Shown: positions 1,398 through 21,947 of the stretch, one piece after another
Numbering within the stretch: position 1 is the first letter of the stretch
Layout: every line of letters begins with the position of its first letter
Source of the DNA: a virus
IMG/VR virus record: IMGVR_UViG_3300021090_000001
Coordinates: 64,001-87,820 of that record
Length of the DNA stretch: 23,820 bases
Strand: one strand, 5' to 3'
Program-made: the position numbers and the translations under genes
The notes under the pieces: model-generated
What the model saw: the letters and a program-made list of their open reading frames with translations, nothing else
What the model was told of the DNA's origin: nothing
Databases searched by the model: none

Positions 1398-2609
1398 TCA
1401 GAAGTCCATTCCCAGCGTTTTCCGCACGCTGCGGCGGTGGCGGTCGATCTCGGCCGCGATGGATTCCAGTTCGGAAGCGTCGTGCCCTTCGGTTGCCGCG
1501 TCCGCGATGTTCTGTTGGATCTCTTTGTTGAGGTTCGTCAGGGACGCCGCGAGCGTGGTCAGCTCGTTGACGACTTCCTTGTCGGGCTCGGTCGAGGAGT
1601 CGCTGGGCATCTTGCCCTGGGCGTCGCTGAGACGCTTCTGGAACTCCTCCAGGCTGGCCCGTGATCGAGCGGCCTGTTTGCCGATGGTCCCGGCGAAGTC
1701 GAGGGTCAGCTCCTGCGCGATCGTCAGCTCCTCGGGGTCGTTCCAGAGGATGTGCTCGAACAGACGCAAGTCCTCCGCTTTGACCTCGCCGCGCTCGCTC
1801 AGCAGCGCCATCGCCTGGCAGATTTTCACACCCTCGAACATGCGGCGTGAGGACAGGTGAAGGTTCTCGCGCTCGGCTTTCGACTGGAGTTCCGCAACCT
1901 TTTCCATGACACGATTCGGCACTTCGATGTTGGCGCTGGCCTCCTGGAGGAGTTCGATCTCCGGGACCGTCAGCGTAGTGTTGGTGGTGGCGATCGCTTC
2001 GCCTCGGTTGCGGGCGATCTGGCCGGTGAGGATTTCGCGGATGCCATCCTCGGTTCGGACGGGCTCCACGATGCGGCGGATGCCGAGCCGGTCGCTGAAC
2101 GCGATCAGCTCCTCTTTGTCGTGGCCGGGAAGCTCGTTCGACGCGGCGATGATCGACCACAGCGGGACGGTGATGATCTGCCCGTCGTTTTCAAACAGGC
2201 GCTCGTTCGCCATCTTCAGCAGCAGGTTGAGGTTGACCGCGTTCGACTTGAAAATCTCATCCAGGAACGCGAGGTTCGCCTCGGGCAGCCGCCCGGTGGT
2301 GACGCGCCGGAACTTGTCTTCTTTCATCGCCTGGAAGCTGATCGGCCCGACCAGCGCGTCGGGCGGGGTCTGCTTGTTGAGCAGATGCGTGAAGAGGGTG
2401 GCGCCATCGACGTGCTTGAGGAACTGGTCCACCATCATCGACTTCGCCACGCCGGGAGGTCCGAGCAGAAGCATGTGGACCTTGGCGATGACGGCCGCGA
2501 GCAGCAGGTCGATCTCGACCCCGCGCTCGACAACCTCGTCCTTCATCTCGTTGCGGATGTCGCGGGTCTTCGCTACGGCTGCGGCGACGGCGGCGTCGGT
2601 CACGGTCAT
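1398..2609 (-). CDS. MoxR-family AAA+ ATPase (RavA-like)
   Basis: A 403-residue AAA+ ATPase. Visible motifs are Walker A GPPGVAKS (50-57), Walker B LAFLDE (113-118), sensor-1 IIAASNE (N158) and a probable arginine finger in FSDRLGIRR (R174). A helical lid and a charged C-terminal helical tail follow. MoxR proteins form hexameric ring ATPases that act with a vWA protein to remodel or insert cofactors into targets; the next gene supplies that vWA partner. The start is ATG 2609, preceded by AAAGGAG. A 239-bp structured gap separates it from the upstream cistron, which suggests separate control. RavA-ViaA, CobS-CobT and vWA-MoxR conflict-system pairs all share this arrangement, and the sequence alone does not choose between them. 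Confidence 0.93.
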   Translation of the reverse strand: MTVTDAAVAAAVAKTRDIRNEMKDEVVERGVEIDLLLAAVIAKVHMLLLGPPGVAKSMMVDQFLKHVDGATLFTHLLNKQTPPDALVGPISFQAMKEDKFRRVTTGRLPEANLAFLDEIFKSNAVNLNLLLKMANERLFENDGQIITVPLWSIIAASNELPGHDKEELIAFSDRLGIRRIVEPVRTEDGIREILTGQIARNRGEAIATTNTTLTVPEIELLQEASANIEVPNRVMEKVAELQSKAERENLHLSSRRMFEGVKICQAMALLSERGEVKAEDLRLFEHILWNDPEELTIAQELTLDFAGTIGKQAARSRASLEEFQKRLSDAQGKMPSDSSTEPDKEVVNELTTLAASLTNLNKEIQQNIADAATEGHDASELESIAAEIDRHRRSVRKTLGMDF

Positions 2610-3199: not shown

Positions 3200-3962
3200 G
3201 GGAATCACCCCTCACTTTCACGGACGCGCTTAACGGGTACCAAGCCCGCGAGCCATCTGCGCAGTCGAATGCGATCAGGCCACTGCCGCGGTCACGCACC
3301 ACCCTCACTACCTCCTTTCCACTGTTCGTGTCGAACTCCCTGGCGCACTCGTCACACATCACGAGCGGCTGCCCGTCCGTGCTTTTCTGGAGAAGCTTGG
3401 CACCGCAGTTGGGGCAGGCAGAGCCTTCGGTGAGTGGCAGCTTGCCCTCGCTCGGCGGGGCGATCGCAACTAGCTCGGCACCCGAGCCGAGGTCGGCATA
3501 GATCCCGTCCTCGCGGACATCGAGGTCAACCGGCTCCCAGTCGTTCGTCTCAACCATCTCAGCGAGGTAGTCGCGCAGCTCCCGCTCGGTCATCTCGTCA
3601 GCGGTGGGGCTGATCCGGTCGTGGCAGATGGTGTAGGTCTGGGTGTCACGGGAACCAACCTTCCAGTCCTCGGCGACGAGGTAGTAACGACTCGGCTCAT
3701 CGTTCGCGGGGTCGCCCGATTCGCCTTGGTAGAGAAAGACATTGGGCTCGCCGTCGTCGGTGCCGGTGGAGGCGTTGAGGTAGATAAGCTCTTGCCGATC
3801 GCCGTCGTTGCTGCGGACGACGTATCCGACTTGGCCGCGCGCAGTTGCGTACGGGATGTACGTCACGCTGTCGTCGGTGACAATCGCGGCGCCCATCCAG
3901 ACGATCTCGGCATCGCAAAAGACCTCGTAGTTGTCGGGTCCCAAATTGAAGCTATCGGTCAT
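3186..3962 (-). CDS. zinc-ribbon protein, 258 residues
   Basis: Residues 183-206 form a zinc ribbon, C183-PN-C186 and C203-DE-C206. It is followed by a beta-rich tail in which a further Cys (C234) sits next to ADGSRAWYPL. The N-terminal 170 residues are acidic, mixed alpha/beta and unfamiliar. ATG 3962 forms an ATGA overlap with the upstream stop and is preceded by GAGGAGACC. The gene overlaps its downstream neighbour by 14 bp. It is probably a nucleic-acid or protein adaptor, but only the ribbon supports that; the substrate is unknown. Confidence 0.78.
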   Translation of the reverse strand: MTDSFNLGPDNYEVFCDAEIVWMGAAIVTDDSVTYIPYATARGQVGYVVRSNDGDRQELIYLNASTGTDDGEPNVFLYQGESGDPANDEPSRYYLVAEDWKVGSRDTQTYTICHDRISPTADEMTERELRDYLAEMVETNDWEPVDLDVREDGIYADLGSGAELVAIAPPSEGKLPLTEGSACPNCGAKLLQKSTDGQPLVMCDECAREFDTNSGKEVVRVVRDRGSGLIAFDCADGSRAWYPLSASVKVRGDSHDQH

Positions 3963-4297
3963 GAGGTCTCCTCGTCCAGTAGGTAGGCGCCTTCGGTGTC
4001 CAGTTCGGCGAGCCGGTGAGTGGCGATGGCGACCAGGTCGCGCAGCCATTCGGCGTTGTTCGCATTCGCCTCTCGACAGACCTCATGGAGGAGCAGGATC
4101 GGTGAAGGCGCCCCGGCTACACGCTCAAGCGATGGCGCCCGGACCCACGAGATGATCACATGGGGGCGGTCATAGCCGGATGTGTAAGGAATTTTCGTCA
4201 GCGTGCCATTCTTGCAGGTGATGCAGGGCTTACCATCCACATGGAGGCCGAGCTTCGGGGCGCCGCAGTTGAGGCAGATGAAAAGCTCAGCGGGCAT
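3959..4297 (-). CDS. N-terminal zinc-ribbon protein, paralogue of the 6263 gene
   Basis: A 112-residue protein opening with a zinc ribbon (ICLNCGAP ... PCITCKNG), then a conserved central piece ISWVRAPSLERVAG and a helical C-terminus LRDLVAIATHRLAELD. The product of 6263-6604 has the same order: CSGCG ... CPNC, VWVRTPSLALVAG, then LRDAAAFLERRLHELD. The two are clearly duplicates kept in one operon. ATG 4297 follows GGGAGGCC. The start overlaps the 3' end of the upstream gene by 11 bp and the stop overlaps the next gene as ATGA. Function unknown. Confidence 0.8.
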   Translation of the reverse strand: MPAELFICLNCGAPKLGLHVDGKPCITCKNGTLTKIPYTSGYDRPHVIISWVRAPSLERVAGAPSPILLLHEVCREANANNAEWLRDLVAIATHRLAELDTEGAYLLDEETS

Positions 4298-6078: not shown

Positions 6079-6269
6079 CAGACGCGCGGTTCGCAGGCGG
6101 CTTCAAAGCGCTCGCGATCGAATTTCGGGTTGTCGGAGTGGAAGGCGTCACCGAGCCGGTCGATGATCGCCTCGGCGACAACGTCGGAATCAACCTCAGT
6201 CCCGTTGAATTCGCTCCAGCCACGACTGACGGCGTCGGCGATCATGTCATAGTGCATCCGGCTCAGCAA
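6078..6269 (-). CDS. small phage/plasmid-type protein with FDRERFEAAC ending
   Basis: A 63-residue helical protein. The pattern HYDMIADAV near the start and N-P-K-F-D-R-E-R-F-E-A-A-C at the end matches, from memory, a very common small family in actinobacterial phages and mobile elements whose members end F-x-R-x-R-F-x-x-A-C. I do not know its function. TTG 6269 is preferred because GAGGAG lies 5 bp upstream and it overlaps the upstream stop. ATG 6257 is the alternative but has no SD. It overlaps the next gene as ATGA. Confidence 0.72.
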   Translation of the reverse strand: MLSRMHYDMIADAVSRGWSEFNGTEVDSDVVAEAIIDRLGDAFHSDNPKFDRERFEAACEPRV

Positions 6270-6604
6270 GGTGGCTCCTCTCCAAGGCGTTCGACATCGA
6301 GTTCATGTAGTCGCCGCTCCAGGAAGGCGGCGGCGTCGCGCAGCGCTTCGGGGTCATCAGGCAAGCCCATAGCCACTTCCAGCGCTTCGCGGGCGCCCCG
6401 TCGAGGGTTCCCACATCCGGCGACAAGCGCAAGCGAGGGAGTGCGGACCCAGACATCGAGCCGGTGCGGCAGGTCGTAGTTGTTCCGGAAAGGGACTGGC
6501 GAATAGGAATCCGCCTGAATGCAATTCGGGCAGGTTTCCCCCGACATTGAAAGCGCGCTCGTTCGACCGCAGCCGCTGCATTGGAGAAGGTCGCCGGGTG
6601 CCAT
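6263..6604 (-). CDS. N-terminal zinc-ribbon protein, paralogue of the 3959 gene
   Basis: A 113-residue protein whose N-terminal ribbon is C-SG-C ... C-PN-C, then VWVRTPSLALVAG and a helix with ALRDAAAFLERRLHELD. It shares order, spacing and the W-V-R-(A/T)-P-S-L core with the protein at 3959-4297. The ribbon residues are conserved while flanks have diverged, so this is an old duplication rather than a recent copy. ATG 6604 sits in a TGATG overlap with the upstream gene. The stop overlaps the next start by 7 bp. Confidence 0.8.
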   Translation of the reverse strand: MAPGDLLQCSGCGRTSALSMSGETCPNCIQADSYSPVPFRNNYDLPHRLDVWVRTPSLALVAGCGNPRRGAREALEVAMGLPDDPEALRDAAAFLERRLHELDVERLGEEPPC

Positions 6605-6963
6605 CAGGTGCTCCGGGCATAGTAGCCCTCACCCTGGTAGTTGACTTCGACGTAATCGGCCGTCAGCGCGTCGGCGGCGGCCTCCCAATCGATGTAACTA
6701 AGCGGCCAACCCTCCTCGCCGCTGATCGCGCCGATGTCCTTGGCCAGCTCGCGGGCTAAGTCCTCGAATTCCCACGTCGGGATCATGGTCTCGCCATGGT
6801 TGAACTCGCTGACCTCGTCTTCGATCGCCTTGATCTCATCGAACTCTTCGCGGTCCTCGCGGGTCCAGGGCGTCCAGTCCTCGCTTCCCTCGTTCGCGGG
6901 ATCGTGTAGAGCAAGCAGCTCATCGCGTCGCTCGGCAAGGTCGCGGGTGTCGATGTAGCTCAT
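6604..6963 (-). CDS. phage-type protein beginning MSYIDTRDL, 119 residues
   Basis: It begins MSYIDTRDLAERRDELLAL, has a charged coil in the middle, and ends with the block EEGWPLSYIDWEAAADAL followed by DYVEVNYQGEGYYAR. I recognise this N-terminus plus the I-D-W-E-A-A-A-D-x-L block from a widespread family in phages and metagenomic phage contigs. The tail resembles small host-takeover or antirestriction-type proteins, but I cannot confirm that role. ATG 6963 overlaps the upstream stop as ATGA, and the next gene starts in a TGATG overlap. Confidence 0.75.
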   Translation of the reverse strand: MSYIDTRDLAERRDELLALHDPANEGSEDWTPWTREDREEFDEIKAIEDEVSEFNHGETMIPTWEFEDLARELAKDIGAISGEEGWPLSYIDWEAAADALTADYVEVNYQGEGYYARST

Positions 6964-10081: not shown

Positions 10082-10324
10082 ATGAGCCGACACACCGAAC
10101 TAGCCGTCGATATGACCACCGTTGCGGGACGCGCGGGCTTGAGCGCCCGGCTGCGCCCGGCCTCTACGTTTCAGGATCGGATAGACGCCTGCGTGGCGGA
10201 TGCCGATCGCGTGGTGGCGCGGCGGATGGCCGCACAGCTGGCCTTCCTGCCGCTGTCAGAGCGCGCCAGCGCCGCTCGGCGGCTGCATTTGATCGAGGGT
10301 GGGGGAGAGAGGATTTCAGGCTAA
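10082..10324 (+). CDS. unknown 80-residue helical protein
   Basis: ATG 10082 follows GAAGGGAA. The product is Ala/Arg-rich and largely helical: a FQDRIDACVADADRVVARR segment and then AFLPLSERASAARRLHLIEGG. It lies 55 bp after the 8854 gene in the same direction and may be co-transcribed with it. A hairpin follows shortly after its stop. No known family. Confidence 0.62.
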   Translation: MSRHTELAVDMTTVAGRAGLSARLRPASTFQDRIDACVADADRVVARRMAAQLAFLPLSERASAARRLHLIEGGGERISG

Positions 10325-10344
10325 CGGGGACGAGCATTCACGCG

Positions 10345-10366
10345 CGCGCAACTATCCGGTTGCGCG
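10345..10366 (+). terminator. possible terminator hairpin after the 10082 gene
   Basis: CGCGCAAC (10345-10352) and GTTGCGCG (10359-10366) form a perfect 8-bp stem with a 6-nt loop, 20 bp after the stop. A second stem follows at about 10390-10413. There is no U-tract, so intrinsic termination is uncertain. Confidence 0.35.
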
Positions 10367-10723
10367 TCGCCGCTTCTCCCCGATGCGCGGCGGCTGACTC
10401 CGCTCGGGAGTCGCCTGCCCTACCCCCCCTTCTCGGTACCCACTTTTGGGTAGCGAAACCGCCCACAACACACCCACGCGCACACCACCCCCGAAAAAAT
10501 CGATCCCCAAAAATTGAACCTGCCCCGCTAACTTAAAGCTAGCTTCGTCCCCCTTCTCCAACCCGGCTCGACCCCTCCGAAACGGCGCAGCTCCCCGAGA
10601 AAGACCCGAGCTTCATCTTCCAATAGCCGCTGAACCCTCTGAAACCGTAGGAAAACCTTGCAGATTGCTGGGTAGAGCGGGTCGGCGAGATTCTTGCGAC
10701 GAATTCGTCCACTTTCCTGGTAC

Positions 10724-10780
10724 CCTGCCGTCGTTCGCTGGCTCGCCCATCCGATAACACGAGCCCCAGCGGTCGGCAGG
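10724..10780. ncRNA. long hairpin, candidate structured RNA
   Basis: CCTGCCG (10724-10730) pairs with CGGCAGG (10774-10780). After a 5/2-nt internal loop, CGCTGGCTCG (10736-10745) pairs with CGAGCC...CCAGCG (10760-10771, sharing bases), leaving a two-base bulge and a 14-nt loop. About 17 base pairs form within 57 nt. It lies about 125 bp upstream of the main rightward operon. It does not have tRNA geometry. Confidence 0.4.
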
Positions 10781-10852
10781 ATTCATAGGTCGGGTAGGGG
10801 CGAGAGCCCGGCCGTAAAGTTTCATCAGACCCGGAACCCCCAGCTAGGCAAG

Positions 10853-10871
10853 CGAACGGGCTGAGCGTTCG
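10853..10871. promoter_or_regulatory. CGAACG-N7-CGTTCG inverted repeat before the rightward operon
   Basis: CGAACG (10853-10858) and CGTTCG (10866-10871) are inverted around a 7-bp spacer, 36 bp upstream of GTG 10907. The left half extends to GCGAACG, the heptamer clustered in the left-arm leaders. Confidence 0.4.
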
Positions 10872-10906
10872 TCTTCACCACTTGACCAATGATTGAAAGG
10901 CTTTCA

Positions 10907-11179
10907 GTGACGGAGAATTCTGCCCCTCGTTCTCGCCGGGCGTTCATCACGGTGAACCCGTTTGTGCCGGACGGCGAGATTCGCGTCGGCGGCACGGTGA
11001 TCCTGACCCGTGCGGCCAGCGACGAGGAAATCGGATTCGCGGCGACAGCGCGGCCGGTGTCGGTTCACGACGAGAATCACGCCCAGAGTCTCGAACGCGG
11101 TCTGAGGGCGCAGGGGGTCGAGTGCAGACGGCAGGAGTGGGCGCCGTCGTGGAGAGGTCGAGCCGATGACCGAGGTTAA
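10907..11179 (+). CDS. unknown 90-residue protein
   Basis: GTG 10907 is preferred because GAAAGG lies 6 bp upstream; ATG 10889 would add six residues but has no SD. The product has a beta-rich start (RRAFITVNPFVPDGEIRVGG) and continues VILTRAASDEEIGFAATA with a basic C-terminus. The GGxVILTR pattern suggests a small strand-based fold. Its last 14 bp overlap the next gene, so it heads the main rightward chain. The Arg-rich tail lies partly in the overlap. Unknown function. Confidence 0.58.
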   Translation: MTENSAPRSRRAFITVNPFVPDGEIRVGGTVILTRAASDEEIGFAATARPVSVHDENHAQSLERGLRAQGVECRRQEWAPSWRGRADDRG

Positions 11180-11621
11180 GCGCATCGACATCGCAGAATT
11201 CCGCGCGCTCGGGTTCCTTCAGGAGGCCAACCGACTGTTCTTCCATCCCCTCGGGCTGGGGCTGGAGGCCGTGGCCGAAAAGTGCCCGGTCTGCCTGGGG
11301 GGCGGGGAGGAGATGATCAAGGGCGAGGACCGGCGAGCGAAGGGCGTCCCGTGCGAGCGCTGCCACGGCTCCGGGCAGGCCGAGCGCCTGGGCGGCGTCT
11401 GGGACTACCGCCAGGACGCCGAGGGCATCTACTACGACTTCGCAGAGGCGACCTGGTCCCCCTACGTGGTGGACGCAGGCGCCAAGGCGGACTACGTTGC
11501 GGCCGAGATGTTGCGGCACGCTCCGGCGCGCGAAGCGCTCTTTGGCGACGGCGTCGTGGTCGAGCCGCTGCCCGCCGAGGACCAAGCTGACCAACCACAA
11601 TCAAAGGAGAGCAGCAAGTGA
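11166..11621 (+). CDS. phage-type protein with inserted CxxCxGxG zinc finger
   Basis: A 151-residue protein. Residues 8-36 (DIAEFRALGFLQEANRLFF, then HPLGLGLEAV) and 76-91 (LGGVWDYRQDAEGIYYDF) match the two conserved blocks of a small actinophage family I know only as hypothetical. Between them lies a DnaJ-like zinc-binding unit, C40-PV-C43-LGGG and C63-ER-C66-HGSG. As I recall, that family usually has a short link here, so the finger looks like an insertion. It starts at ATG 11166 inside the previous gene and its stop overlaps the next GTG. It probably binds zinc; role unknown. Confidence 0.78.
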   Translation: MTEVKRIDIAEFRALGFLQEANRLFFHPLGLGLEAVAEKCPVCLGGGEEMIKGEDRRAKGVPCERCHGSGQAERLGGVWDYRQDAEGIYYDFAEATWSPYVVDAGAKADYVAAEMLRHAPAREALFGDGVVVEPLPAEDQADQPQSKESSK

Positions 11622-11887
11622 AGATCAACGTCCGGCACGAAAGCGCCCAGGAGGTAGCCGAGGAGACTCAGTCCCACCCGGCGAGGACCTGCGTCTGGAT
11701 CGTCGGCGACGACGGCGAGACGCAGGACACGGCCTACCTCGAACCCGGCCAGGCGCTGCCGATCGAGATCGAGATCGACGCCGTGGTGGACGCGTACACG
11801 TTCGGCCCGGTGGGTCCCATCGAGGTCCCCGTAGCGGCCGAGGAGGCGCAGGCGGCCGAGGGCGGCGAAGGCACGCCGATCACCTAG
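11618..11887 (+). CDS. unknown 89-residue acidic protein
   Basis: GTG 11618 overlaps the upstream stop and follows AAAGGAGAGC. The protein is acidic and beta-like: KINVRHESAQEVAEE, TCVWIVGDDGETQDTAYLEP, then PIEIEIDAVVDAYTFGPVG, ending in a Gly/Glu-rich tail. The GQALPIEIEIDAVVDAY segment looks like paired beta strands. No cysteine cluster or membrane segment is present. It ends the first three-gene block; about 190 bp without a gene follow. Unknown function. Confidence 0.68.
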   Translation: MKINVRHESAQEVAEETQSHPARTCVWIVGDDGETQDTAYLEPGQALPIEIEIDAVVDAYTFGPVGPIEVPVAAEEAQAAEGGEGTPIT

Positions 11888-12080
11888 GCGCAGGACCCGG
11901 ACTAGATCGCAGCAACACAGACGGGGTCGTCCCTTTCAACGCCGGGGCGGCTTAAACGACCCGGCTTAGCGGGGCGCCCGACCGGACTCGGCGGCCTCCC
12001 CCCCGGGGTCGATACTCCGGCGTAGGCGCGTAAGGCCGAGAATCGCGCCCAGCTTCGACCAACCAGTGAAAGGACACGAG
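11888..12080 (+). other. 193-bp intergenic region with a nested hairpin
   Basis: GGGTCGT (11924-11930) pairs with ACGACCC (11956-11962), and inside the loop GCCG/CGGC (11941-11951) pairs around GGG. No U-tract follows. The GAAAGGA SD for the next gene lies at its right end. It may be a processing or attenuation site between two blocks of the operon. Confidence 0.35.
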
Positions 12081-12272
12081 ATGCCCGACTACGCCATCAC
12101 TGTCTCCATCGAGGGGCTGCCGCCTAACGACAACGAGTACGACGAGGACCGCTACCTTGCGCAGTTTTTCCGAGTCGAAGTTGAGCTGGTGGAGCTGTGG
12201 AAGACCGGCGCTCGGGCCGAGAACATCGAAGAGGCCATCTCGCAGGCCCTGACCGAGGCGGTGATCGGATGA
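12081..12272 (+). CDS. small 63-residue acidic protein
   Basis: ATG 12081 follows GAAAGGA at normal spacing and is preferred over GTG 12066. The product begins MPDYAITVSIEGLPPNDNEYD, continues with a strand FFRVEVELVELW and ends in a helix NIEEAISQALTEAVIG. A beta-beta-alpha layout is likely. The stop overlaps the next start as ATGA, so it heads the second, almost seamless block of the rightward operon. Unknown family. Confidence 0.7.
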   Translation: MPDYAITVSIEGLPPNDNEYDEDRYLAQFFRVEVELVELWKTGARAENIEEAISQALTEAVIG

Positions 12273-12757
12273 CCGGATCGGATCACACCGCCCAGCCGCC
12301 GTTCCCCATCCCCAGCGGCTCGCTGACTTGGGCGCCGCCCGGCGCGTCGATCGGGTTCGTATGGCCGCCCGAGAGCGACGACATCCAGTGCTGGGCGGTG
12401 GACAGAGACCCCGGTACCTTCCTGGTGGAGCTGCCGGGGTTTTCGATCGCCGCTGGGGCGGAAGGCGACAACGAGGCGCTGGAGCGTGACCGGGCCGCCT
12501 TCATCGCCCACGTCAAGGACTTCCTCGGTTTCCCCAAGTGGTATCGGCCCTCGCAGGTTCTGATCCTGGAGGCGCCCAGTGCCCAGGATGACCTCGATCT
12601 AGAGGAGATCAAAGCCATCGAAGTGTTCCAGGGCTCCTTGAACCTGTTCGCCGCCGCCGATGAGGTCTACATCTTTCGGGGTACTGAGGCGGCGACGTTG
12701 AAGCACGCCGATCGTGCGCCCGAGGATGTCCGCGTCGCAATCCAGAGGAGGAGCTGA
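12269..12757 (+). CDS. unknown 162-residue protein with VRVAIQRRS tail
   Basis: ATG 12269 sits in an ATGA overlap. The N-terminus is Pro/Trp-rich (LTWAPPGASIGFVWPP) and acidic strands and helices follow. The last nine residues, VRVAIQRRS, recur almost exactly at the end of the 36-residue product of 13068-13178. The nucleotide sequence of the two tails is also similar, marking a duplicated gene junction. The next gene begins 2 bp after the stop with its SD, GGAGGAG, lying in the tail codons. Function unknown. Confidence 0.75.
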   Translation: MTGSDHTAQPPFPIPSGSLTWAPPGASIGFVWPPESDDIQCWAVDRDPGTFLVELPGFSIAAGAEGDNEALERDRAAFIAHVKDFLGFPKWYRPSQVLILEAPSAQDDLDLEEIKAIEVFQGSLNLFAAADEVYIFRGTEAATLKHADRAPEDVRVAIQRRS

Positions 12758-12759
12758 CA

Positions 12760-13068
12760 GTGAAGCTGAAGCGCGTCGAGCCCGAGATTCCACAGGAGCG
12801 AGTGAAACATGAATTGCCCGAGTCCCTTCGAGCCCTCGCCGAAGAGTTCAACGAGCGTGTGGGCTTTTCTTCTTTAGTAGAGATCGCCCTGTATGTCGGT
12901 CCTGGCCGCGCCGTCCCGCGCCGTCAGTGGTGCCTGAAGATGCACGTGGCCTCGGCCCTCTGGTTTGGCACCGATCTGGAAAAGATGATCGAGGCGGCCA
13001 AGAAGCACAACTGCATCTTCATCAAAATCGACCAGCACAACGCCGCGCACTTCACGGAGGCCGTTTGA
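12760..13068 (+). CDS. 102-residue protein, stand-alone version of the 13178 C-terminal module
   Basis: GTG 12760 follows GAGGAGGAGC. Residues 18-90 (ELPESLRALAEEFNERVG, then EIALYVGPG, LEKMIEAAKKHNCIFIKI) align with residues 131-197 of the protein at 13178 (FAEEVREKSPEYVVALSIGPG, read in parts; then LIEEFSALAREYGCVGEYIHL). The same order of helix, strand with GPG turn, helix and closing strand is kept. It also shares ELPE(S/T)LRALA with the N-terminus of the 13178 protein. It overlaps the next gene by 1 bp (TGATG). Function unknown. Confidence 0.75.
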   Translation: MKLKRVEPEIPQERVKHELPESLRALAEEFNERVGFSSLVEIALYVGPGRAVPRRQWCLKMHVASALWFGTDLEKMIEAAKKHNCIFIKIDQHNAAHFTEAV

Positions 13069-13178
13069 TGGCGGGCATCCAGGACCGCCTACACGCCGCG
13101 CAGGCGCTCGCTGAGGCCGCCGAGGCGCGCTACGAGTCCACCGAGAACGTCCACGTCGCGATCCAGAGGCGGACCTGA
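13068..13178 (+). CDS. 36-residue protein with VHVAIQRRT tail
   Basis: A very short gene in TGATG overlaps at both ends (13066-13070 and 13176-13180). It begins MAGIQDRLHAAQALAEAAEA, a single amphipathic helix, and ends VHVAIQRRT, nearly the tail of the 12269 gene product. The seamless coupling and the shared tail indicate that this is the remnant or reduced copy of a 12269-like gene left by a local duplication rather than a chance frame. Confidence 0.62.
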   Translation: MAGIQDRLHAAQALAEAAEARYESTENVHVAIQRRT

Positions 13179-13825
13179 TGGCGCCACCGCGAGAGTTGCC
13201 CGAGACCCTGCGGGCGCTCGCCGATGCGGCGGGCAACAAGCTCGGGAAGGTCAACTGGCCGGTGGCGATCATCAACGCCGTCTGGGACGCCAAGGAGACG
13301 CCCGAGGGTGAGGACGGGCTCGGTCAGACCCACGCCCTCGATCGCGTCGAGGCGATCCTCGCGGAGGTTCTGGGTATGGAGATCGGCGAAGCACTTTCGG
13401 TCAATGAAATGGTCGCCAGGCTGAAGGCGATGCGGAAGGGACGGCAAGTGACCTGCCCGAAGTGCAAGACCGTCGCCATCGTCCACGCCGCCGGTCTTGA
13501 CACCGGGGAGATGAACTTCTGCACCAAGTGCGGGACCAGGCTGCTGCCGGATGACGCCCGAGTTCCGATCCCGCTTGCCCTCGTTTCCTTCGCGGAAGAG
13601 GTGCGCGAGAAGTCACCCGAGTACGTGGTGGCGCTCTCGATCGGCCCCGGTGAACCGGACTGGGCGGTGCGGGTCCAGCACCCGACCGGGCGCTTTGACC
13701 GCAAGCTGATCGAAGAGTTCAGCGCATTGGCGAGAGAATACGGTTGCGTCGGCGAGTACATACACCTACAGCTCGCCCCACAGGACATATTCACGATCTG
13801 GGTCCGCGAAGGAGATGGTGTTTGA
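13178..13825 (+). CDS. three-module zinc-ribbon protein, 215 residues
   Basis: Residues 26-82 form a helical module (NWPVAIINAVW, then GMEIGEALSVNEMVARL) also found in the 15965 gene product. Residues 91-121 are a zinc ribbon, C93-PK-C96 and C115-TK-C118. Residues 130-200 match the 12760 protein. It therefore looks like a fusion of separately encoded parts around a ribbon. ATG 13178 is in a TGATG overlap and the stop overlaps the next start the same way. Probably a nucleic-acid or protein adaptor; the role of the modules is unknown. Confidence 0.8.
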   Translation: MAPPRELPETLRALADAAGNKLGKVNWPVAIINAVWDAKETPEGEDGLGQTHALDRVEAILAEVLGMEIGEALSVNEMVARLKAMRKGRQVTCPKCKTVAIVHAAGLDTGEMNFCTKCGTRLLPDDARVPIPLALVSFAEEVREKSPEYVVALSIGPGEPDWAVRVQHPTGRFDRKLIEEFSALAREYGCVGEYIHLQLAPQDIFTIWVREGDGV

Positions 13826-14145
13826 TGACCGAGGAAGCGGGCTTCATCGGTTGGGAGGACGCCCTTGTCCTAACTCCCGACGAGCGTCAGGAGATAGCCA
13901 GGGTCGTCATCTCGGCTATCAGCCGGGTCTCGGCTATCAGCCGGGGCGCCGACGAGCTTGTGATCGCCTATGCGCTGGGCCGGATCGCGGCCGAGGCATC
14001 GGAAGACGCCGGGGCGCCCGCGATCGACCTGAAAGCGACCGCGTTGAGGGCCATCACCCACTCCATTGGCTTGGCACGTCGAGCGGGCGCGAGCTGGAAC
14101 GAGATCGCCAGCGCCCTACCGAACCCGCAAGAGTGGGAGGACTGA
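13825..14145 (+). CDS. helical 106-residue protein with in-frame tandem repeat
   Basis: ATG 13825 follows GAAGGAG and overlaps the upstream stop. The protein is helical; the C-terminus ARRAGASWNEIASALPNPQEW resembles a HTH helix pair of the type G-A-S-W-x-E-I-A. Residues 29-40 contain SAISRV-SAISRG, produced by a perfect 18-bp tandem duplication at 13910-13945. A DNA-binding role is suggested by the HTH-like end but unproven. The stop overlaps the next ATG (TGATG). Confidence 0.76.
   Translation: MTEEAGFIGWEDALVLTPDERQEIARVVISAISRVSAISRGADELVIAYALGRIAAEASEDAGAPAIDLKATALRAITHSIGLARRAGASWNEIASALPNPQEWED
13910..13945 (+). repeat. perfect 18-bp tandem duplication
   Basis: TCTCGGCTATCAGCCGGG is repeated twice with no difference, adding six in-frame residues. 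Each unit contains CGGCT-ATC-AGCCG, a short hairpin, which makes replication slippage a likely origin. Confidence 0.9.
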
Positions 14146-14420
14146 TGGCCCGCCTGGACAACCGCCCAGACAAACCAGGGGCGCCCGGCTTCCGCATCCG
14201 CACCCTGACTGCGTTTATCGCTGTCGATGAGGAGGACAACAGTGAGGGTGTGGTCGCTTGTACGAACCCGGTCACCGGGATGACCGAACCGCTGATCGGC
14301 GCCGACGACGCGCGGATCATGCAATACCGGCCGCTCGCGGAAAGGTTTGTGAAGGCGACGGGCACCCCGATCACGCTCGTCCGGTTCACCGTTCGCGAGG
14401 ACGTGGAGACGTTGCGATGA
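14145..14420 (+). CDS. unknown 91-residue protein
   Basis: ATG 14145 is in a TGATG overlap. The product begins with a basic, Pro-rich segment (MARLDNRPDKPGAPGFRIR), then strands LTAFIAVDEEDNSEGVVACT and a helix DARIMQYRPLAERFVKATG, closing with a strand ITLVRFTVRED. This alternation fits a small alpha/beta fold. Its stop overlaps the next ATG by 4 bp. No catalytic residues are apparent. Confidence 0.72.
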   Translation: MARLDNRPDKPGAPGFRIRTLTAFIAVDEEDNSEGVVACTNPVTGMTEPLIGADDARIMQYRPLAERFVKATGTPITLVRFTVREDVETLR

Positions 14421-15016
14421 GCGAAGCACCTTGGGAGGTCCGCGCCGAAGCGGCGGGTTCGATCGTTGACATCCAAGCGAAGGCGCTGAAGGCCGCGCTG
14501 ACGGAGTCGAAGCCCGACGTTCGTGCCGCCTACATACGGATGGCCGAGGCCGCCGAGATGGCCTTTGCCCTGGTCGTGCCGGAGGTAATCCAAAGCGCCA
14601 TGAGTAAGGAGCATCTTCTCCCCGATCCGAGCGCCCAGGTTGGCGGCGTCGAGCCATACTCCACGGACGACCCCCTCGTCGTTCTCCTCTACCTGCTCCT
14701 TCGTGACCATCTGCACGCCGGGATTTTCGAGAGACTGATCAGTGAACTTGGCGATGGCGGCAGCTCCCTGACGAACCCCTACCTCGGCCAGTATGCGGTT
14801 AACATCGCACAGCGACTCCGCGAAGACCGGGGTACGCCGATCCCCAGCCTCAGCGAGGACGAGGCCACCGCGATCAGTGACTGCGTCGCGGTGGCGGCGC
14901 GCATCGGCGCGGCCTTCGAGTTCTACGGCGGCATCGAAGTCCACAAAGCCGCTCGGAAGGCGACTGACGCCCTCGACCGACTCGGCATCCAACACGAGAC
15001 GGAGGTTGAGGATTAG
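14417..15016 (+). CDS. unknown 199-residue helical protein
   Basis: ATG 14417 is in an ATGA overlap. The N-terminal 60 residues are long helices (SIVDIQAKALKAALTESKPD; RMAEAAEMAFALVVPEVIQS). A Leu-rich piece PLVVLLYLLLRDHL follows but is too short and too charged at its ends to be a clear membrane helix. The C-terminal third has AISDCVAVAARIGAAFEFYGG and HKAARKATDALDRLGI helices. The next gene starts immediately after its TAG. Helical scaffold or small-regulator types are possible; family unknown. Confidence 0.72.
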   Translation: MSEAPWEVRAEAAGSIVDIQAKALKAALTESKPDVRAAYIRMAEAAEMAFALVVPEVIQSAMSKEHLLPDPSAQVGGVEPYSTDDPLVVLLYLLLRDHLHAGIFERLISELGDGGSSLTNPYLGQYAVNIAQRLREDRGTPIPSLSEDEATAISDCVAVAARIGAAFEFYGGIEVHKAARKATDALDRLGIQHETEVED

Positions 15017-15379
15017 ATGGCGCTCAGCAAGGCAATAGGACCGCTCGAACGGCTGGTGAAATGGCGGGTGGTGTTCGCGGGCTGGCAGCTCGGGACCCGT
15101 TACAACCGTGACAAGGAGGACCCCGAGGCTCAGGCGGTTCGTGACCATCGCGAGGTAACGATGATCATGCGCGCCGAGATTTCAGCGCTGGTCGCGCTGC
15201 TGGTGGAGAAAGGCGTCATCACCGAAGAGGAGTTCGACGCCGCGCTCGCTGCTGAGGCAGAGCAGTTGAGCGAGGACTTCTCCAAACGCTTCCCCGGAAT
15301 GCGCGCCACCGACATCGGCATCACGGTGGACATCGCCGAGATGGAAAAACACGGTACGATGCGCGGGTGGCTGCCGTGA
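15017..15379 (+). CDS. phage-type protein, LERLVKWRVVFAGWQLGTR family
   Basis: A 120-residue protein with LERLVKWRVVFAGWQLGTR near the start, then AVRDHREVTMIMRAEISALV and a helical C-terminus with KRFPGMRATDIGITVD. This run of conserved blocks is one I recognise from many actinobacteriophage genomes, where it is annotated only as hypothetical. Length is close to the family norm as I recall it, so the gene appears intact. ATG 15017 directly follows the TAG of its neighbour, and the 3' end overlaps the next GTG start. Confidence 0.82.
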   Translation: MALSKAIGPLERLVKWRVVFAGWQLGTRYNRDKEDPEAQAVRDHREVTMIMRAEISALVALLVEKGVITEEEFDAALAAEAEQLSEDFSKRFPGMRATDIGITVDIAEMEKHGTMRGWLP

Positions 15380-15972
15380 CGCTCGCGGACGCCGCCTTCT
15401 TTGTCTCGTTGTTCGCCTTCGTCACCACTATCGCTCTGAGCGTGGTTTACGCCCGCGCGGTGAGGTCGCAACAGGCAAAGCTGAAGGAAAAGGACGAGGA
15501 GATCGTCAATCGGCTCGATCGGGCGGCGCCGTTCATGCGCCGAGTGCTGGAGCTGGTCCAGGATGTCGAGAGAGTCGCCGAAAACCTACGTCAGCAGACG
15601 TCCGCCGGGGCGCGACAATGTGGCGATGAGCTGCGTGCCGCCACCGCGAGGTTCGCGGGGCGGATTGAGCCTGAGGAGGTAGTCGAGGTCGCCCATGCTG
15701 GTGACGAGCCCGCCAGGCCCGAGCCCTCGCAACGCTGGGAGCTGATACCGGGAGTGACGATCACCGAGGCGGGTAGAACGGTGGGCCACCACATCGGCGT
15801 GCCGGTTGACCACGTCCGCGCACTGGTTGAGGCCGTTGACCTCAGGGTCATGGCCGACCCCAAGCAGCGCTGCCTCGCCGAAGGCACCCTGGCCGAGCTG
15901 CGCCAGTGCATCGCCGAGGTTGACCGCAGAGAGCAGGAAGACACGAGATGGAGGTTGAAGAATCATGAGTGA
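15376..15972 (+). CDS. single-pass membrane protein with coiled coil
   Basis: GTG 15376 forms a GTGA overlap; GTG 15367 would add three residues. Residues 6-26 (AAFFVSLFAFVTTIALSVVYA) form one hydrophobic helix with Arg just after it, predicting N-terminus out and the rest cytoplasmic. Residues 30-75 are a charged coiled coil. A globular C-terminus includes GVTITEAGRTVGHHIGVPVD and a conserved-looking helix, CLAEGTLAELRQCIAEV. It may tether a partner to the membrane. It overlaps the next gene by 8 bp. Confidence 0.75.
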   Translation: MTLADAAFFVSLFAFVTTIALSVVYARAVRSQQAKLKEKDEEIVNRLDRAAPFMRRVLELVQDVERVAENLRQQTSAGARQCGDELRAATARFAGRIEPEEVVEVAHAGDEPARPEPSQRWELIPGVTITEAGRTVGHHIGVPVDHVRALVEAVDLRVMADPKQRCLAEGTLAELRQCIAEVDRREQEDTRWRLKNHE

Positions 15973-16444
15973 CAGCACGGGAAACGCCCCTTCGAGGGTG
16001 GAGGACCTTCGACGGGGCCTCGAAATTATCCATAACCTGGGTGGAGTCGGCCGCCCCGACCCCGACTGGCCGCTCGCGATCGCCTGGGCCGTGGACCAAA
16101 CGAATGACGGAACTGCCAACGAGCGTCGGAACTTAGTCCTGAAGGCGATCGCGATCCTCCTCGGCGTCGAGCCCGGCGAGGCCCTGACTATCCCCGAGAT
16201 GATCCGGCGCCGCACGCTGCCCGAGCGGCTCTTGCCGATCTTGGACGAGGACCGCTACGAATTCACCGGACTCCGGCTCCGAGAAATGCTGTTCGAAGTC
16301 GCGGGCACCGCCAGTGGTGTGTTCCTCCGAGAAGACCCCGATAAGGTGATGCCGTTGAGCGAGGTCGCCAAGGCCGTTCAGGGCTGGGCCATCGTCAGGG
16401 CCGAGATGTTCGCCGCCGCGCACCAAGATCTGGCCGATGGCTGA
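15965..16444 (+). CDS. 159-residue protein sharing a module with the 13178 gene
   Basis: ATG 15965 follows GGAGG at 10 bp. Residues 33-83 (DWPLAIAWAVDQ, then AIAILLGVEPGEALTIPEMIRR) align with residues 25-82 of the 13178 protein, keeping W-P-(L/V)-A-I, L-G-(V/M) and G-E-A-L-(T/S). The rest is helical with no zinc ribbon. The shared module therefore moves between different partners within this operon. The stop overlaps the next ATG by 8 bp. Function unknown. Confidence 0.77.
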   Translation: MSDSTGNAPSRVEDLRRGLEIIHNLGGVGRPDPDWPLAIAWAVDQTNDGTANERRNLVLKAIAILLGVEPGEALTIPEMIRRRTLPERLLPILDEDRYEFTGLRLREMLFEVAGTASGVFLREDPDKVMPLSEVAKAVQGWAIVRAEMFAAAHQDLADG

Positions 16445-16646
16445 CGTTAGGCCAACCCAGGATGAGATCTGGTCGGCAGGCGACTCCCGAGTGAAGGTGC
16501 TGTGCGTCAGCGGCGATCGGGTAACGCTTGAACGGACGGCCGGGGCGCCCAACCATGTCCTGCACAGGACCTTCATCTGTTCGATCGCCCAACTGAACGC
16601 CGCCTTCACGCTCGATGCCGCGCGGACCAAGGCAGGCTCGCCATGA
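16437..16646 (+). CDS. small beta-barrel-like protein, 69 residues
   Basis: It starts at ATG 16437 inside the previous gene. The sequence DEIWSAGDSRVKVLCVSGDR, then VTLER and LHRTFICSIAQLN, follows the pattern of small phage proteins that open with G/D-x-I-W-x-x-x-D and have a V-x-V-L-x-V-x-G-D-x-V-x-L hairpin, a small barrel of unknown role. The C-terminal 10 residues are basic and probably disordered. The stop overlaps the next ATG (ATGA). Confidence 0.7.
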   Translation: MADVRPTQDEIWSAGDSRVKVLCVSGDRVTLERTAGAPNHVLHRTFICSIAQLNAAFTLDAARTKAGSP

Positions 16647-16783
16647 GATGGCTTGGCCTGTTTCTAGTAGGCGTTGTCGTCGGTGCCGCCGGAATGCTCG
16701 GCCTGGCCTGGGCGGTAGACGCATACGAGGAACGAACCGGCACAAACGTCTACCCGCCGACGCCGCGCCAGTGGGGGGACTGA
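16643..16783 (+). CDS. 46-residue single-pass membrane protein
   Basis: ATG 16643 is in an ATGA overlap and the stop in a TGATG overlap. The product starts MRWLGLFLVGVVVGAAGMLG and continues LAWAVDAYEERTG, so one transmembrane helix of about 24 residues is followed by a short polar tail ending TPRQWGD. The helix contains G-x3-G/A spacing (G10, G14, A16), which favours helix packing. The hydrophobic run in a dense chain makes a chance frame unlikely. It is a second membrane-anchored product near the 15376 gene. Confidence 0.72.
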   Translation: MRWLGLFLVGVVVGAAGMLGLAWAVDAYEERTGTNVYPPTPRQWGD

Positions 16784-17046
16784 TGACCTACCGGCCCATG
16801 ACCGACGACGAGATTCGGTACTACGCCGAAGGGCTCAAAGAGGCAACGATCCTCTTCTTCGACCTTGCTCTGGGTGAGAACTCGGCGGGCATCCTGACGC
16901 CCGAAGAGTTCAGCTGCCTGCTCTACAGCGGGCCGCTACCCGACGAGCTGCGCAAGTGGCTGAAGCAATCTCGCGAGCGGGCATACGATGGTGCCCTGCG
17001 GGCTCAGGTTGAAGCCAGCGGCCGCGCAGTCAGGGATGCAGAATGA
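16783..17046 (+). CDS. unknown 87-residue acidic helical protein
   Basis: ATG 16783 overlaps the membrane-protein stop. The product begins MTYRPMTDDEIRYYAEGLKE, then ATILFFDLALGENSAGILTP and a helix LPDELRKWLKQSRERAYDGAL. No cysteine pair or membrane helix is seen. Its acidic start and a charged C-terminal helix suggest a soluble binding protein. The stop overlaps the next gene as ATGA. Confidence 0.7.
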   Translation: MTYRPMTDDEIRYYAEGLKEATILFFDLALGENSAGILTPEEFSCLLYSGPLPDELRKWLKQSRERAYDGALRAQVEASGRAVRDAE

Positions 17047-17213
17047 CTCGGGAATCCAGCCTCAAAAAGCGTATCCGTGCCCGGATGAAAGAGACGGGCG
17101 AGAAGTTCACCCAGGCGCGTCGAGCCGTCCTCGCTGAAGACGAGGCTGCGTTCGAGCGCGAGCAAGATCGCCCGGATCACAGTGGCGATCGCAACATTGG
17201 AGAAGACCAATGA
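17043..17213 (+). CDS. 56-residue basic protein with RARMKETGEKFTQARR motif
   Basis: ATG 17043 is in an ATGA overlap. The motif K-R-I-R-A-R-M-K-E-T-G-E-K-F-T-Q-A-R-R at residues 9-27 has the form K-x-x-R-A-R-M-x-x-T-G-E-x-[FY]-x-x-A-R-R. I have seen this often in actinobacterial proteins, alone or at the ends of larger ones, without an established role. A helix with a basic face makes nucleic-acid or ribosome contact plausible. The C-terminus is acidic and polar. The stop overlaps the next ATG. Confidence 0.68.
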   Translation: MTRESSLKKRIRARMKETGEKFTQARRAVLAEDEAAFEREQDRPDHSGDRNIGEDQ

Positions 17214-17323
17214 TCAAACGCCTGTTCAGAGTTATGTTCTCACCCACCGAGCCTTCCCAGCGCCGACCCGCGCGTCAGATCGCGCTGGAAGCCCGGCGTA
17301 TCGAGGCGGCGACAAGGCGCTAG
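17210..17323 (+). CDS. possible 37-residue basic peptide
   Basis: ATG 17210 is in an ATGA overlap and the TAG (17321-17323) shares a base with the next gene's GTG. The product begins MIKRLFRVMFSPTEPSQRRP and ends with an Arg-rich helix ALEARRIEAATRR. The continuous coupling supports translation, but the short basic sequence is also what a chance GC-rich frame gives, so confidence is modest. Confidence 0.48.
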   Translation: MIKRLFRVMFSPTEPSQRRPARQIALEARRIEAATRR

Positions 17324-17877
17324 TGGCGACGCAGCTCTCAACTGGAGGCAGCGTCAGGGTCGAACGTGAGGATGGCGACGCTTGTCAACGCTTCGGCTGC
17401 ACCGGGCTTCTGCACCCTCACGGCAAGATCCGGGGTGAAGATGTCATGGAGTGCAGTGGTTGTCACTTCACCTTCGCGACGATCTTCTCGCTTCCCGCCG
17501 GTCCACCGCATGGACAGGGCGAACCACCAGAAGTGACGATCCCCTCTGTCGTCATTGAGCGGTTCGCGCGACTGCTGCTGCAACGCAACCAGGAAATCGC
17601 AGTCCCGAACCCGAACGACCGCACGAGCTTTGAGGACCTGCCGCCGAATCTCCAACGCGGCCACATCAAGGATGCCGAAGCCCTGCTCACCCCGATATGG
17701 ACTGAAGTCGCCGACTGGTTCGGTTTCTCGCTCGATGATCGAGAAAATCAGCAAAACGCGGGGAATGCAATCAGCGAGATCGCCATCCCCGCGCTAAAAC
17801 ACTGTGAGGAGCATTACAACTACGGAGCCCGCGCACGCCGCTTGCTCGAAGCCGCGATCGGAAGTGAGGCGGGATGA
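17323..17877 (+). CDS. zinc-finger protein, 184 residues
   Basis: GTG 17323 is chosen because it overlaps the upstream TAG by one base; longer readings would overlap two coupled genes. A zinc site is seen at C21-QRFG-C26 and C44-SG-C47-H. The middle (TIPSVVIERFARLLLQRNQE) and C-terminus (NAISEIAIPALKHCEEHYNY) are helical, with the segment RTSFEDLPPNLQRGHIKDAE between them. The four-Cys arrangement with long spacing resembles a ribbon. Function unknown, possibly regulatory. Confidence 0.72.
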   Translation: MATQLSTGGSVRVEREDGDACQRFGCTGLLHPHGKIRGEDVMECSGCHFTFATIFSLPAGPPHGQGEPPEVTIPSVVIERFARLLLQRNQEIAVPNPNDRTSFEDLPPNLQRGHIKDAEALLTPIWTEVADWFGFSLDDRENQQNAGNAISEIAIPALKHCEEHYNYGARARRLLEAAIGSEAG

Positions 17878-18152
17878 TGGCGGGGGAGCTGTATGAGCGT
17901 TTCCAGGAGCTTTCCAAGCGGTTCGACGCCGTCCAGGAGGAGGTCATGCGCCTCATGCGCCCGCCGTTCAACCAGGACCCGGACATCTCGATGCGAAACC
18001 AGATTATTGGCTACCTGAAGGGCAAGGCGAACGTCAGGGAAGACGAGGCTGCCAACGCACCAAGTTCAGACGCTCGTCAGGAATTGACCGAACAGGCGGC
18101 GACGCTGCGGTTGGCCGCCGACGATCTCGAACACGAACAGGAGGGGAAATGA
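17874..18152 (+). CDS. unknown 92-residue helical protein
   Basis: ATG 17874 (ATGA overlap) or ATG 17877 (TGATG) is the start; both keep the frame. The product is nearly all helix: ELYERFQELSKRFDAVQEEV, then ISMRNQIIGYLKGKANVRED and QELTEQAATLRLAADDLEHE. Heptad-like spacing in the first segment suggests coiled-coil pairing. No known family. Its stop overlaps the next gene. Confidence 0.7.
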   Translation: MMAGELYERFQELSKRFDAVQEEVMRLMRPPFNQDPDISMRNQIIGYLKGKANVREDEAANAPSSDARQELTEQAATLRLAADDLEHEQEGK

Positions 18153-18712
18153 CCACCCGAAAAGACGACGATGCCCTGACCGAGTTTCAGAAGCAGGCGC
18201 TCGGACGCACCGATGCCCTGACCGAGCCTCAGAAGCAGGCGCTCGGACGCACTATCGACAATGCCTACCGTCGAAAAGAGTGGGACGGCAACATGCGGAA
18301 GCGGCCGAACCTCTGGAATTGCTCAGGACCGACGGCGATCGCGCTGGTCCGCAAGGGGATGGTCGAAGAAGTCACCTCAGGTGGGTACCGAACTGTGTTT
18401 CGGCTCACCAAAGCTGGTGTCGAGGTCGGCACTGCCGAGGCGACCAAGACGCTCGCCAAGCACCCCCAGCTTCTTGCGCAGGAGGAGCGCGATCGCAAGA
18501 ACAAAGAGTCGAACGAACGCAACCGGAGGATCGCCAAGATTGTCGAGCCTTTCCGGGGAATCAAAGTGACCAGCGAAAAGAAGAAGGTGTCACTCGCCGC
18601 GTTACTGGAGAAGGAACTACAACGCGAACAGTATCGCGGTAGGTCCAATGCCTCACTAGACGACAAACAGTGGGAGCAACTGGGCGAGCAGATCGAGACG
18701 CTGCGGTCATGA
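18149..18712 (+). CDS. winged-helix-like protein with N-terminal tandem duplication
   Basis: A 187-residue protein. Residues 8-21 and 22-35 are near-identical 14-residue repeats (DALTEFQKQALGRT / DALTEPQKQALGRT), encoded by a 42-bp tandem duplication. Residues 55-95 (NLWNCSGPTAIALVRKGMVE, then GYRTVFRLTKAGVEVG) have the recognition helix, wing and T-x-A-G ending of a winged helix of the MarR/plasmid-regulator type. The C-terminal half is highly charged helix. ATG 18149 is in an ATGA overlap. Probably a DNA-binding regulator. Confidence 0.78.
   Translation: MTTRKDDDALTEFQKQALGRTDALTEPQKQALGRTIDNAYRRKEWDGNMRKRPNLWNCSGPTAIALVRKGMVEEVTSGGYRTVFRLTKAGVEVGTAEATKTLAKHPQLLAQEERDRKNKESNERNRRIAKIVEPFRGIKVTSEKKKVSLAALLEKELQREQYRGRSNASLDDKQWEQLGEQIETLRS
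18170..18253 (+). repeat. 42-bp in-frame tandem duplication
   Basis: Units 18170-18211 and 18212-18253 differ at only three positions (TTT/CCT in one codon and the last base). The first unit is a degenerate start to the second, so the duplication is recent. It lengthens the N-terminus of the winged-helix-like protein by 14 residues. Confidence 0.9.
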
Positions 18713-21134: not shown

Positions 21135-21947
21135 GTGCCACCGCAAGAGCTGAAGTTAGGCAAGAAACCACACGTCGAGGACTCGCGCGATCTGATGCTC
21201 GGTCGCTTTCTCGACCTCTCTAGGCTGCCCGTCCCGCCCGAGACCTTCACCTACGCGGGCGTGATCGAGGATGGCGAATGGGGGATGCTGCTCAACGACC
21301 GGCTCGACTCGTGCGCTCCGGCCGGAGCGATCCACTCCCAGCTCGGCCTCTCCCGGATCGGCGACCACAACCCCGACTTCAACGACGCCTGCTGCGAGTT
21401 GGCATACGAGGAAATGGGCGGCTACGTGATCGGCGACCCGGCGACCGATCAGGGCTGCGATCTCCGCGACGTGGCGAAGGTCTGGCAGAAGGTCGGTCTG
21501 GCGGACGCGAGCGGCCATCGCCACCGCTGCGGGTTCTACCTCTGGCTGGAGCCCGGTAACCTGGTCGAGCTGAAGATCGCCACCTACCTGTTCAAAACCG
21601 GGTGCCTCGGCTTTCGGCTCACCCAGAACGCGCAGGAGGCATACTGGGCCGCTGAAGGGGCCGGGACCAAACCCGTCTGGAACTTCGATCCCGCCTCGCC
21701 CGAAGTCGGTGGCCATGCGGTGCCGGAGTTCGGGCCGGTCGAGGAAGGCTGCTGGGACGGCGTCTCCTGGGGCTCCGGGGTGGACATCGCCGACGCCTAT
21801 ATCGAGAACCAGATGGACAGTGGCTTCGTCGTGATCACTCACGCTGACCTCGATGTAACGGGTCAGGTCGAGGGGTTCGACTCGGAGGCCGTGCAAGGCC
21901 ACGTGAAAGCGCTGAAGCGGGAATTCGCCGGGGCGGTCGCGGCCTGA
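21135..21947 (+). CDS. papain-like Cys/His protein, 270 residues
   Basis: GTG 21135 follows AAGGAG. The block LLNDRLDSCAPAGAIHSQ places C60 where papain-fold proteins carry the nucleophile, and VGGHAVPEF places H194 in the usual G-G-H position, followed by SWG (W212). The family I recall (N-D-x-L-x-D-C then G-G-Y-x-x-G-D-P-x-T-D-x-G) occurs in bacteria and phages as putative cysteine-peptidase-like proteins. The Asn of the triad is not obvious in VSWGSG, so activity is uncertain. No signal peptide, so it is likely cytoplasmic. It overlaps the next gene by 1 bp. Confidence 0.8.
   Translation: MPPQELKLGKKPHVEDSRDLMLGRFLDLSRLPVPPETFTYAGVIEDGEWGMLLNDRLDSCAPAGAIHSQLGLSRIGDHNPDFNDACCELAYEEMGGYVIGDPATDQGCDLRDVAKVWQKVGLADASGHRHRCGFYLWLEPGNLVELKIATYLFKTGCLGFRLTQNAQEAYWAAEGAGTKPVWNFDPASPEVGGHAVPEFGPVEEGCWDGVSWGSGVDIADAYIENQMDSGFVVITHADLDVTGQVEGFDSEAVQGHVKALKREFAGAVAA

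Follow-up and report, generated by a model that had tools for sequence, protein, structure and literature searches.

Two described phage cases come closest to the locus reported here. The orphan gene product 55.2 of phage T4 is reported to be an inhibitor of topoisomerase I (PMC4396842), and the cluster K mycobacteriophages have start-associated sequences of 13 bp that occur in many copies per genome (PMC3203893). The locus itself lies in the IMG/VR virus record IMGVR_UViG_3300021090_000001 (87,820 bases), bases 64001–87820 of which form the window (23,820 nt; window positions are given throughout), and it comprises three small genes, A, B and C, parts of which resemble one another. A copy at the DNA level runs across the starts of A and B and is a stronger finding than the shared protein modules put forward in an earlier sequence-only reading. 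A and B are probably paralogues that arose by local tandem duplication among the small genes of a divergent tailed phage.

Genes A (12760–13068; 102 amino acids, GTG start), B (13178–13825; 215 amino acids) and C (15965–16444; 159 amino acids) are open reading frames on the plus strand, and all of them are among the 98 genes that a simple caller based on codon usage picked out. As the sequence-only reading had it, the three genes are real, share a strand and fall within 3.7 kb. The gene calls, and the protein-pair and gene-start-pair counts given below, refer to stretches that add up to 63,820 of the record's 87,820 bases, the other 24,000 having been reached only by record-wide searches. Upstream of A is gene D (12269–12757, plus strand; 162 amino acids), and between A and B a putative frame of 36 amino acids (13068–13178, plus strand) begins on the stop codon of A and ends at the start codon of B.

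Two plus-strand repeats follow each other in identical order across the starts of A and B. The gene-boundary repeat (family D8; 38 nt, 84% identity) has its first copy at 12720–12757, spanning the tail of gene D with its ribosome-binding site and stop codon, and its second copy at 13141–13178, directly before B, where it closes the 36-codon frame. The gene-start repeat (family D12; 32 nt, 84% identity) comes next, at 12811–12842 in A (the codons for ELPESLRALAE) and at 13193–13224 in B (ELPETLRALAD). The translated tail of D, EAATLKHADRAPEDVRVAIQRRS, is copied as EAAEARYESTENVHVAIQRRT where the small frame ends, with a score of 41 that none of 2000 shuffles equalled, and the local DNA alignment score of 46 and the gapped score of 31.2 were reached in none of 500 codon shuffles. 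When 135-base windows at the starts of 96 genes were compared, the A/B pair came first of the 4560 pairs (score 31.2), followed by a pair at 21.3. A 15-base core of the boundary occurs exactly at only two sites in the entire record, with one more site on the opposite strand at two mismatches, and with the exact word at just two places the repeat is not a dispersed element. Over the 11 codons of the gene-start repeat, five of the six base differences fall at third codon positions, an excess which suggests that both copies are translated and constrained; the tail repeat has no such codon-position bias (differences of 3, 2 and 2 over 13 codons). The DNA likeness of the two regions is limited to approximately 120 nt around the starts. 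Separately, the gene boundaries at 14119–14150 and 16757–16788 are alike over 32 bases (78%), including the tail, ribosome site, stop and start; this pair was dropped as a second duplication, being only fifth of the 4560 gene-start pairs and not above chance.

At the protein level, A resembles both ends of B. Ten of 19 residues at the beginnings of the two proteins are identical, and the alignment of A with the C-terminal module of B (residues 130–215; 13565–13822, plus strand) is collinear through to the end, with 24% identity across the module and a local score (Z 6.3) that none of 2000 shuffles equals. Once the first 35 residues of A are removed, 11 of 2000 shuffles are as good against all of B and one of 2000 against the C-terminal module alone. 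Under the duplication reading, the duplicated piece would have extended from the tail of D, past the ribosome-binding site, as far as the B gene. Of the two copies, the upstream one, now A, would have lost the N-terminal module and the zinc ribbon but kept the first codons of B and, probably, the C-terminal module, and the copied tail of D would survive as the end of the 36-codon frame just before B. Tandem duplication with loss from the upstream copy accounts for the order D, A, copied tail, B, as well as for the likeness of A to both ends of B. What is shown is the DNA repeat and its place, together with the ribbon cysteines and the lack of relatives in the collections searched; the descent of A from B through an internal deletion, and the direction of copying, are inferences.

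Several observations weigh against the duplication reading, beginning with the loss of DNA likeness between the body of A and the C-terminal module of B (247 of 1000 codon shuffles as good). Among the 4465 pairs formed by the 95 proteins no longer than 450 residues (pairs with a longer protein being excluded), A–B ranks only ninth, one of 4465 reversed pairs is as good, and a gene elsewhere in the record, L008_54_677f, outscores B against the body of A, which together make the protein likeness of this body to the module marginal. The proposal that A is the C-terminal module of B standing alone thus retains its alignment and stays marginal, with A also matching the start of B. The predicted structures are poor. 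The model of B, built with A and C as the only other alignment rows, has a mean predicted local distance difference test (pLDDT) of 59 and a predicted template modelling score of 0.38, with pLDDT mostly about 50–78 in the C-terminal module, and confidence is very low for A modelled alone (mean pLDDT 44). Helices 21–34 and 73–83 of A fall at the alignment places of helices 133–145 and 175–187 of B, a coincidence that gives weak support, given the quality of the models and the presence of A and C in the alignment for B. Genes A, B and C sit in a run of small plus-strand genes, many with overlaps of a few bases, which is consistent with co-transcription of the run; the promoter side lends this no support, as a sigma-70 consensus scan of 10300–17400 returned 0 promoter-like sites (shuffles, mean 0.7).

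The C-terminal module of B is modelled as helix 133–145, strands 150–155 and 162–167, helix 175–187 and strands 191–195 and 204–208, a permuted ferredoxin-like arrangement. Compared by VIA-align, B residues 129–214 are best placed on OtsB2 (5gvx; Z 8.4, 74 aligned, 3.4 Å), with the remainder at 7.5 and below, including a circular permutant of S6 (6i6i; Z 7.3, 80 aligned, 3.2 Å), XcpY (5n7l; Z 6.7, 78 aligned, root-mean-square deviation 3.7) and, for the module, the PulL–PulM heterocomplex (8ab1; Z 5.1, 71 aligned, root-mean-square deviation 3.7); Z values under about 8 may reflect a common arrangement only, a further point against the reading. Residues 159–189 match positions 5–37 of the 69 in the Pfam profile NIR_SIR_ferr (PF03460) at 21.5 bits, below the cut-off of 24, and with these placements a permuted ferredoxin-like fold is plausible for the module and should be taken as that only. 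A Foldseek search with the B model, run against the PDB and viral models, had no match reaching E 0.001, and the collagenases that headed its matches were dismissed (alignment at 18 Å root-mean-square deviation).

The zinc ribbon that the sequence-only reading had seen in B is there: two CxxC knuckles at ribbon spacing, CPKC-x18-CTKC, can be read directly at residues 93–118 (C93-x2-C96-x18-C115-x2-C118; 13454–13531, plus strand), with modelled strands at 89–92 and 99–102. Its profile matches stay below the curated cut-offs for Pfam Zn_ribbon_3 (18.7 bits against 27) and Zn_Ribbon_1 (15.6 against 25) and below the cut-off for the NCBIfam YnfU family (18.4 against 36). Two small proteins elsewhere in the window (3959–4297 and 6263–6604, minus strand), by eye paralogues, each have two CxxC knuckles as well and share a middle stretch (SGYDRPHVIISWVRAPSLERVAG and NNYDLPHRLDVWVRTPSLALVAG, respectively); the frame at 6263–6604 was rejected by the gene caller.

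The N-terminal module of B (residues 1–88; 13178–13441, plus strand), modelled with low confidence as helices 27–40, 49–64 and 75–86, resembles residues 8–82 of C, and the remainder of C matches nothing. BLAST aligns the two at 28.5 bits with 34% identity over 56 residues, the local score is matched by none of 2000 shuffles (Z 8.3), and B–C ranks first of the 4465 protein pairs with none of 4465 reversed-sequence pairs as good; in whole-record searches B retrieves C and C retrieves B, and nothing further. Nearly all of the signal is in one block of nine residues, GEAL[ST][IV]xEM (the pair being GEALTIPEM and GEALSVNEM), and with the block masked Z falls from 8.8 to 3.0 (77 of 5000 shuffles as good). 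A degenerate DNA pattern for the block finds 61 loci, five viral and 56 in genomes, the remainder of the B module being absent at all of them; at 30 of the 61, in a hand count from the contexts, the block sits in what we take by eye to be serine-esterase-like sequence. With the fall in Z on masking and the recurrence of the block in unrelated esterase-like proteins, a module common to the B N-terminal part and C is likely and not secure, so that the shared module of the earlier reading stands as the best-ranked pair of the set and falls short in resting mostly on nine residues. The second half of C shows no resemblance to the C-terminal module of B (1819 of 2000 shuffles as good) or to A (982 of 2000), and a three-way alignment that placed it with both was rejected on these scores. 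What C has in common with B would be no more than a single short helical segment, either because C is an older and more diverged duplicate or because a common helix motif is alike by chance.

Two other accounts of these likenesses each have about one chance in four by our estimate. It may be that the boundary alone was copied, with the upstream tail, ribosome site and first codons set as a translation-start cassette before an unrelated gene, so that the body of A and the C-terminal module of B have nothing to do with each other. The confinement of the DNA likeness to the starts fits this, as do the lack of a DNA signal in the body of A, for which the account is kept, and the marginal protein signal there. 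It is the weaker alternative to duplication. Against it, the body of A still aligns in order with the module at a level that one of 2000 shuffles reaches, and a third copy of the cassette was not found in the record. Equally doubtful is that the protein likenesses extending beyond the DNA repeat, both B–C and the body of A with the B module, are chance matches among short phage proteins rich in helix, alanine and glutamate. The ninth rank of A–B with a reversed pair as good, and GEALS[IV]xEM as a common word in unrelated proteins, speak for chance, whereas B–C has no reversed pair as good and, even with the block masked, is equalled by few of its shuffles.

The sequence-only reading went further, from modules found both fused and separate to subunits acting in one complex. 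As an undescribed phage system, A, B and C would have B as a two-headed scaffold, with its N-terminal module docking C-like partners, its C-terminal module docking A and the ribbon bridging them. The tight packing of the genes on one strand within 3.7 kb and the first rank of B–C are in its favor, but sharing inside one genome is what duplication would produce, the DNA repeat shows duplication for A and B, the B–C likeness rests on nine residues, and no relative showing the set conserved was found in viral and genome contigs, 50,697 phage records or 72,556 plasmids. An argument for a complex needs orthologues that form a fusion in one genome and stand apart in another; every copy here belongs to a single genome and A and B bear the mark of a local DNA duplication, so the step to a complex is unsupported, plain paralogy explains the sharing, and such a system is improbable. 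Duplication is the preferred reading, and the case looks like gene birth by duplication, not a proven new protein machine.

What the products do can be proposed only as a long shot. B may be a small non-virion phage protein, with its ribbon and helices holding a host or nucleic-acid partner and its ferredoxin-like C-terminal module pairing with itself or with A, in which case A would modulate B; the ribbon, the size of B and the run of small genes of unknown function are the reason to place it among the partner-binding non-virion phage proteins. A bolder version, which we consider very improbable, would have A, B and C as a phage-made set in which duplicated domains around a zinc-ribbon scaffold seize a host machine, with A, as a B that lacks its docking parts, acting as a dominant modulator, the set having been born by tandem duplication and internal deletion within one lineage.

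Searches of Pfam, PHROGs, NCBIfam and the PDB sequences assign none of the modules of A, B and C to a recognised family, in line with the sequence-only reading, which had recognised none, and no solved structure was matched by sequence. The scans for relatives mostly use short exact peptide patterns, which distant relatives may escape. With this sensitivity, no confirmed relative was found in viral contigs for A, B, C, a further two genes of the window and two module alignments of two sequences each, in genome contigs or the plasmids for B, or by tblastn in the phage records for A, B and C. Among 396 genomes of one phylum, reached via a Corynebacterium locus, B was found in none (0 of 396), a count that is uninformative without a positive genome. 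The best phage match, DSS3P8 gp222 (E 0.2), and CRP-9 gp66 were both rejected as unrelated in sequence. A title-level search of the literature on phage gene-boundary duplication, zinc-ribbon domain shuffling and orphan genes found no description of these proteins, which leaves their absence from it unproven. A and B appear ordinary in kind, as phage orphan paralogues, and new as a family.

In record stretches 24001–64000, a protein of 1632 residues matches tail tape-measure families (E 5e-18) and others match a tyrosine integrase (E 2e-33), a PD-(D/E)XK nuclease and a RuvB-like ATPase, so that the record is that of an integrase-bearing tailed phage. It is far from named phages: with the tape-measure protein, tblastn finds nothing at E 1e-5 in the 50,697 phage records. 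No tRNA was found in the window.

Several other genes were observed along the way. A bpMoxR ATPase (E 2e-43; window 1398–2609, minus strand) adjoins a 519-residue frame (L074 337–1896, minus strand) with a DESGSMG stretch that by eye is characteristic of von Willebrand A domains. The group also includes a DUF6744 protein (E 1e-21) and, further, a RuvB-like ATPase (L008 18877–19824 and L008 17635–18789, minus strand), and in Moorella phage MTATph1 relatives of the MoxR and DUF6744 proteins lie approximately 2 kb or less apart; the pairing of MoxR with a von Willebrand A protein in a phage may merit separate study. A 119-residue protein (6604–6963, minus strand) matches ArdA antirestriction proteins below the cut-off (19.3 bits, where 27 is required). 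An adjacent 42-base tandem repeat (18169–18252; 95%) doubles a unit of 14 residues early in the gene at 18149. A 270-residue protein (21135–21947) matches phrog_19005 (E 4e-17) and is 28% identical to a record annotated as a cysteine protease.

If the duplication reading is correct, the locus is a small worked case of the birth of a phage orphan gene, in which a gene tail, ribosome site and gene start copied together provide an extra translated gene at once and internal deletion then reduces the duplicate to a single domain. The two copies of the boundary remain 84% alike; between the A body and the B module the DNA likeness has been lost. By itself, the duplication reveals no new system.

Compared with described proteins, the C-terminal module of B has a 31-residue stretch that matches part of the PF03460 half domain, in keeping with the ferredoxin-like model, but the score is under the cut-off and no reductase context occurs among the proteins scanned. 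The C-terminal domains of GspL proteins (XcpY 5n7l, PulL 8a9w and PulL–PulM 8ab1) have a similar order of helices and strands (Z 5.1–6.7 over 71–78 residues, which a common arrangement could explain), and differ in identity (10–17%) and in being periplasmic parts of a secretion system; by analogy, XcpY and the PulL–PulM heterocomplex would be precedents for pairing through a module like that of B. T4 55.2, like A and B, is a small phage protein without relatives, and is a precedent for the sort of function, with a host target, that an orphan phage gene may have. The start-associated sequences of cluster K likewise place a repeated word over the ribosome-binding site directly upstream of start codons, in that half of the genome that holds the non-structural genes; no family membership or common descent is asserted for these two likenesses. 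Unlike the cluster K sequences, the A/B repeat has two long copies only, and these run on into the coding region, which argues for duplication and not for a dispersed start signal.

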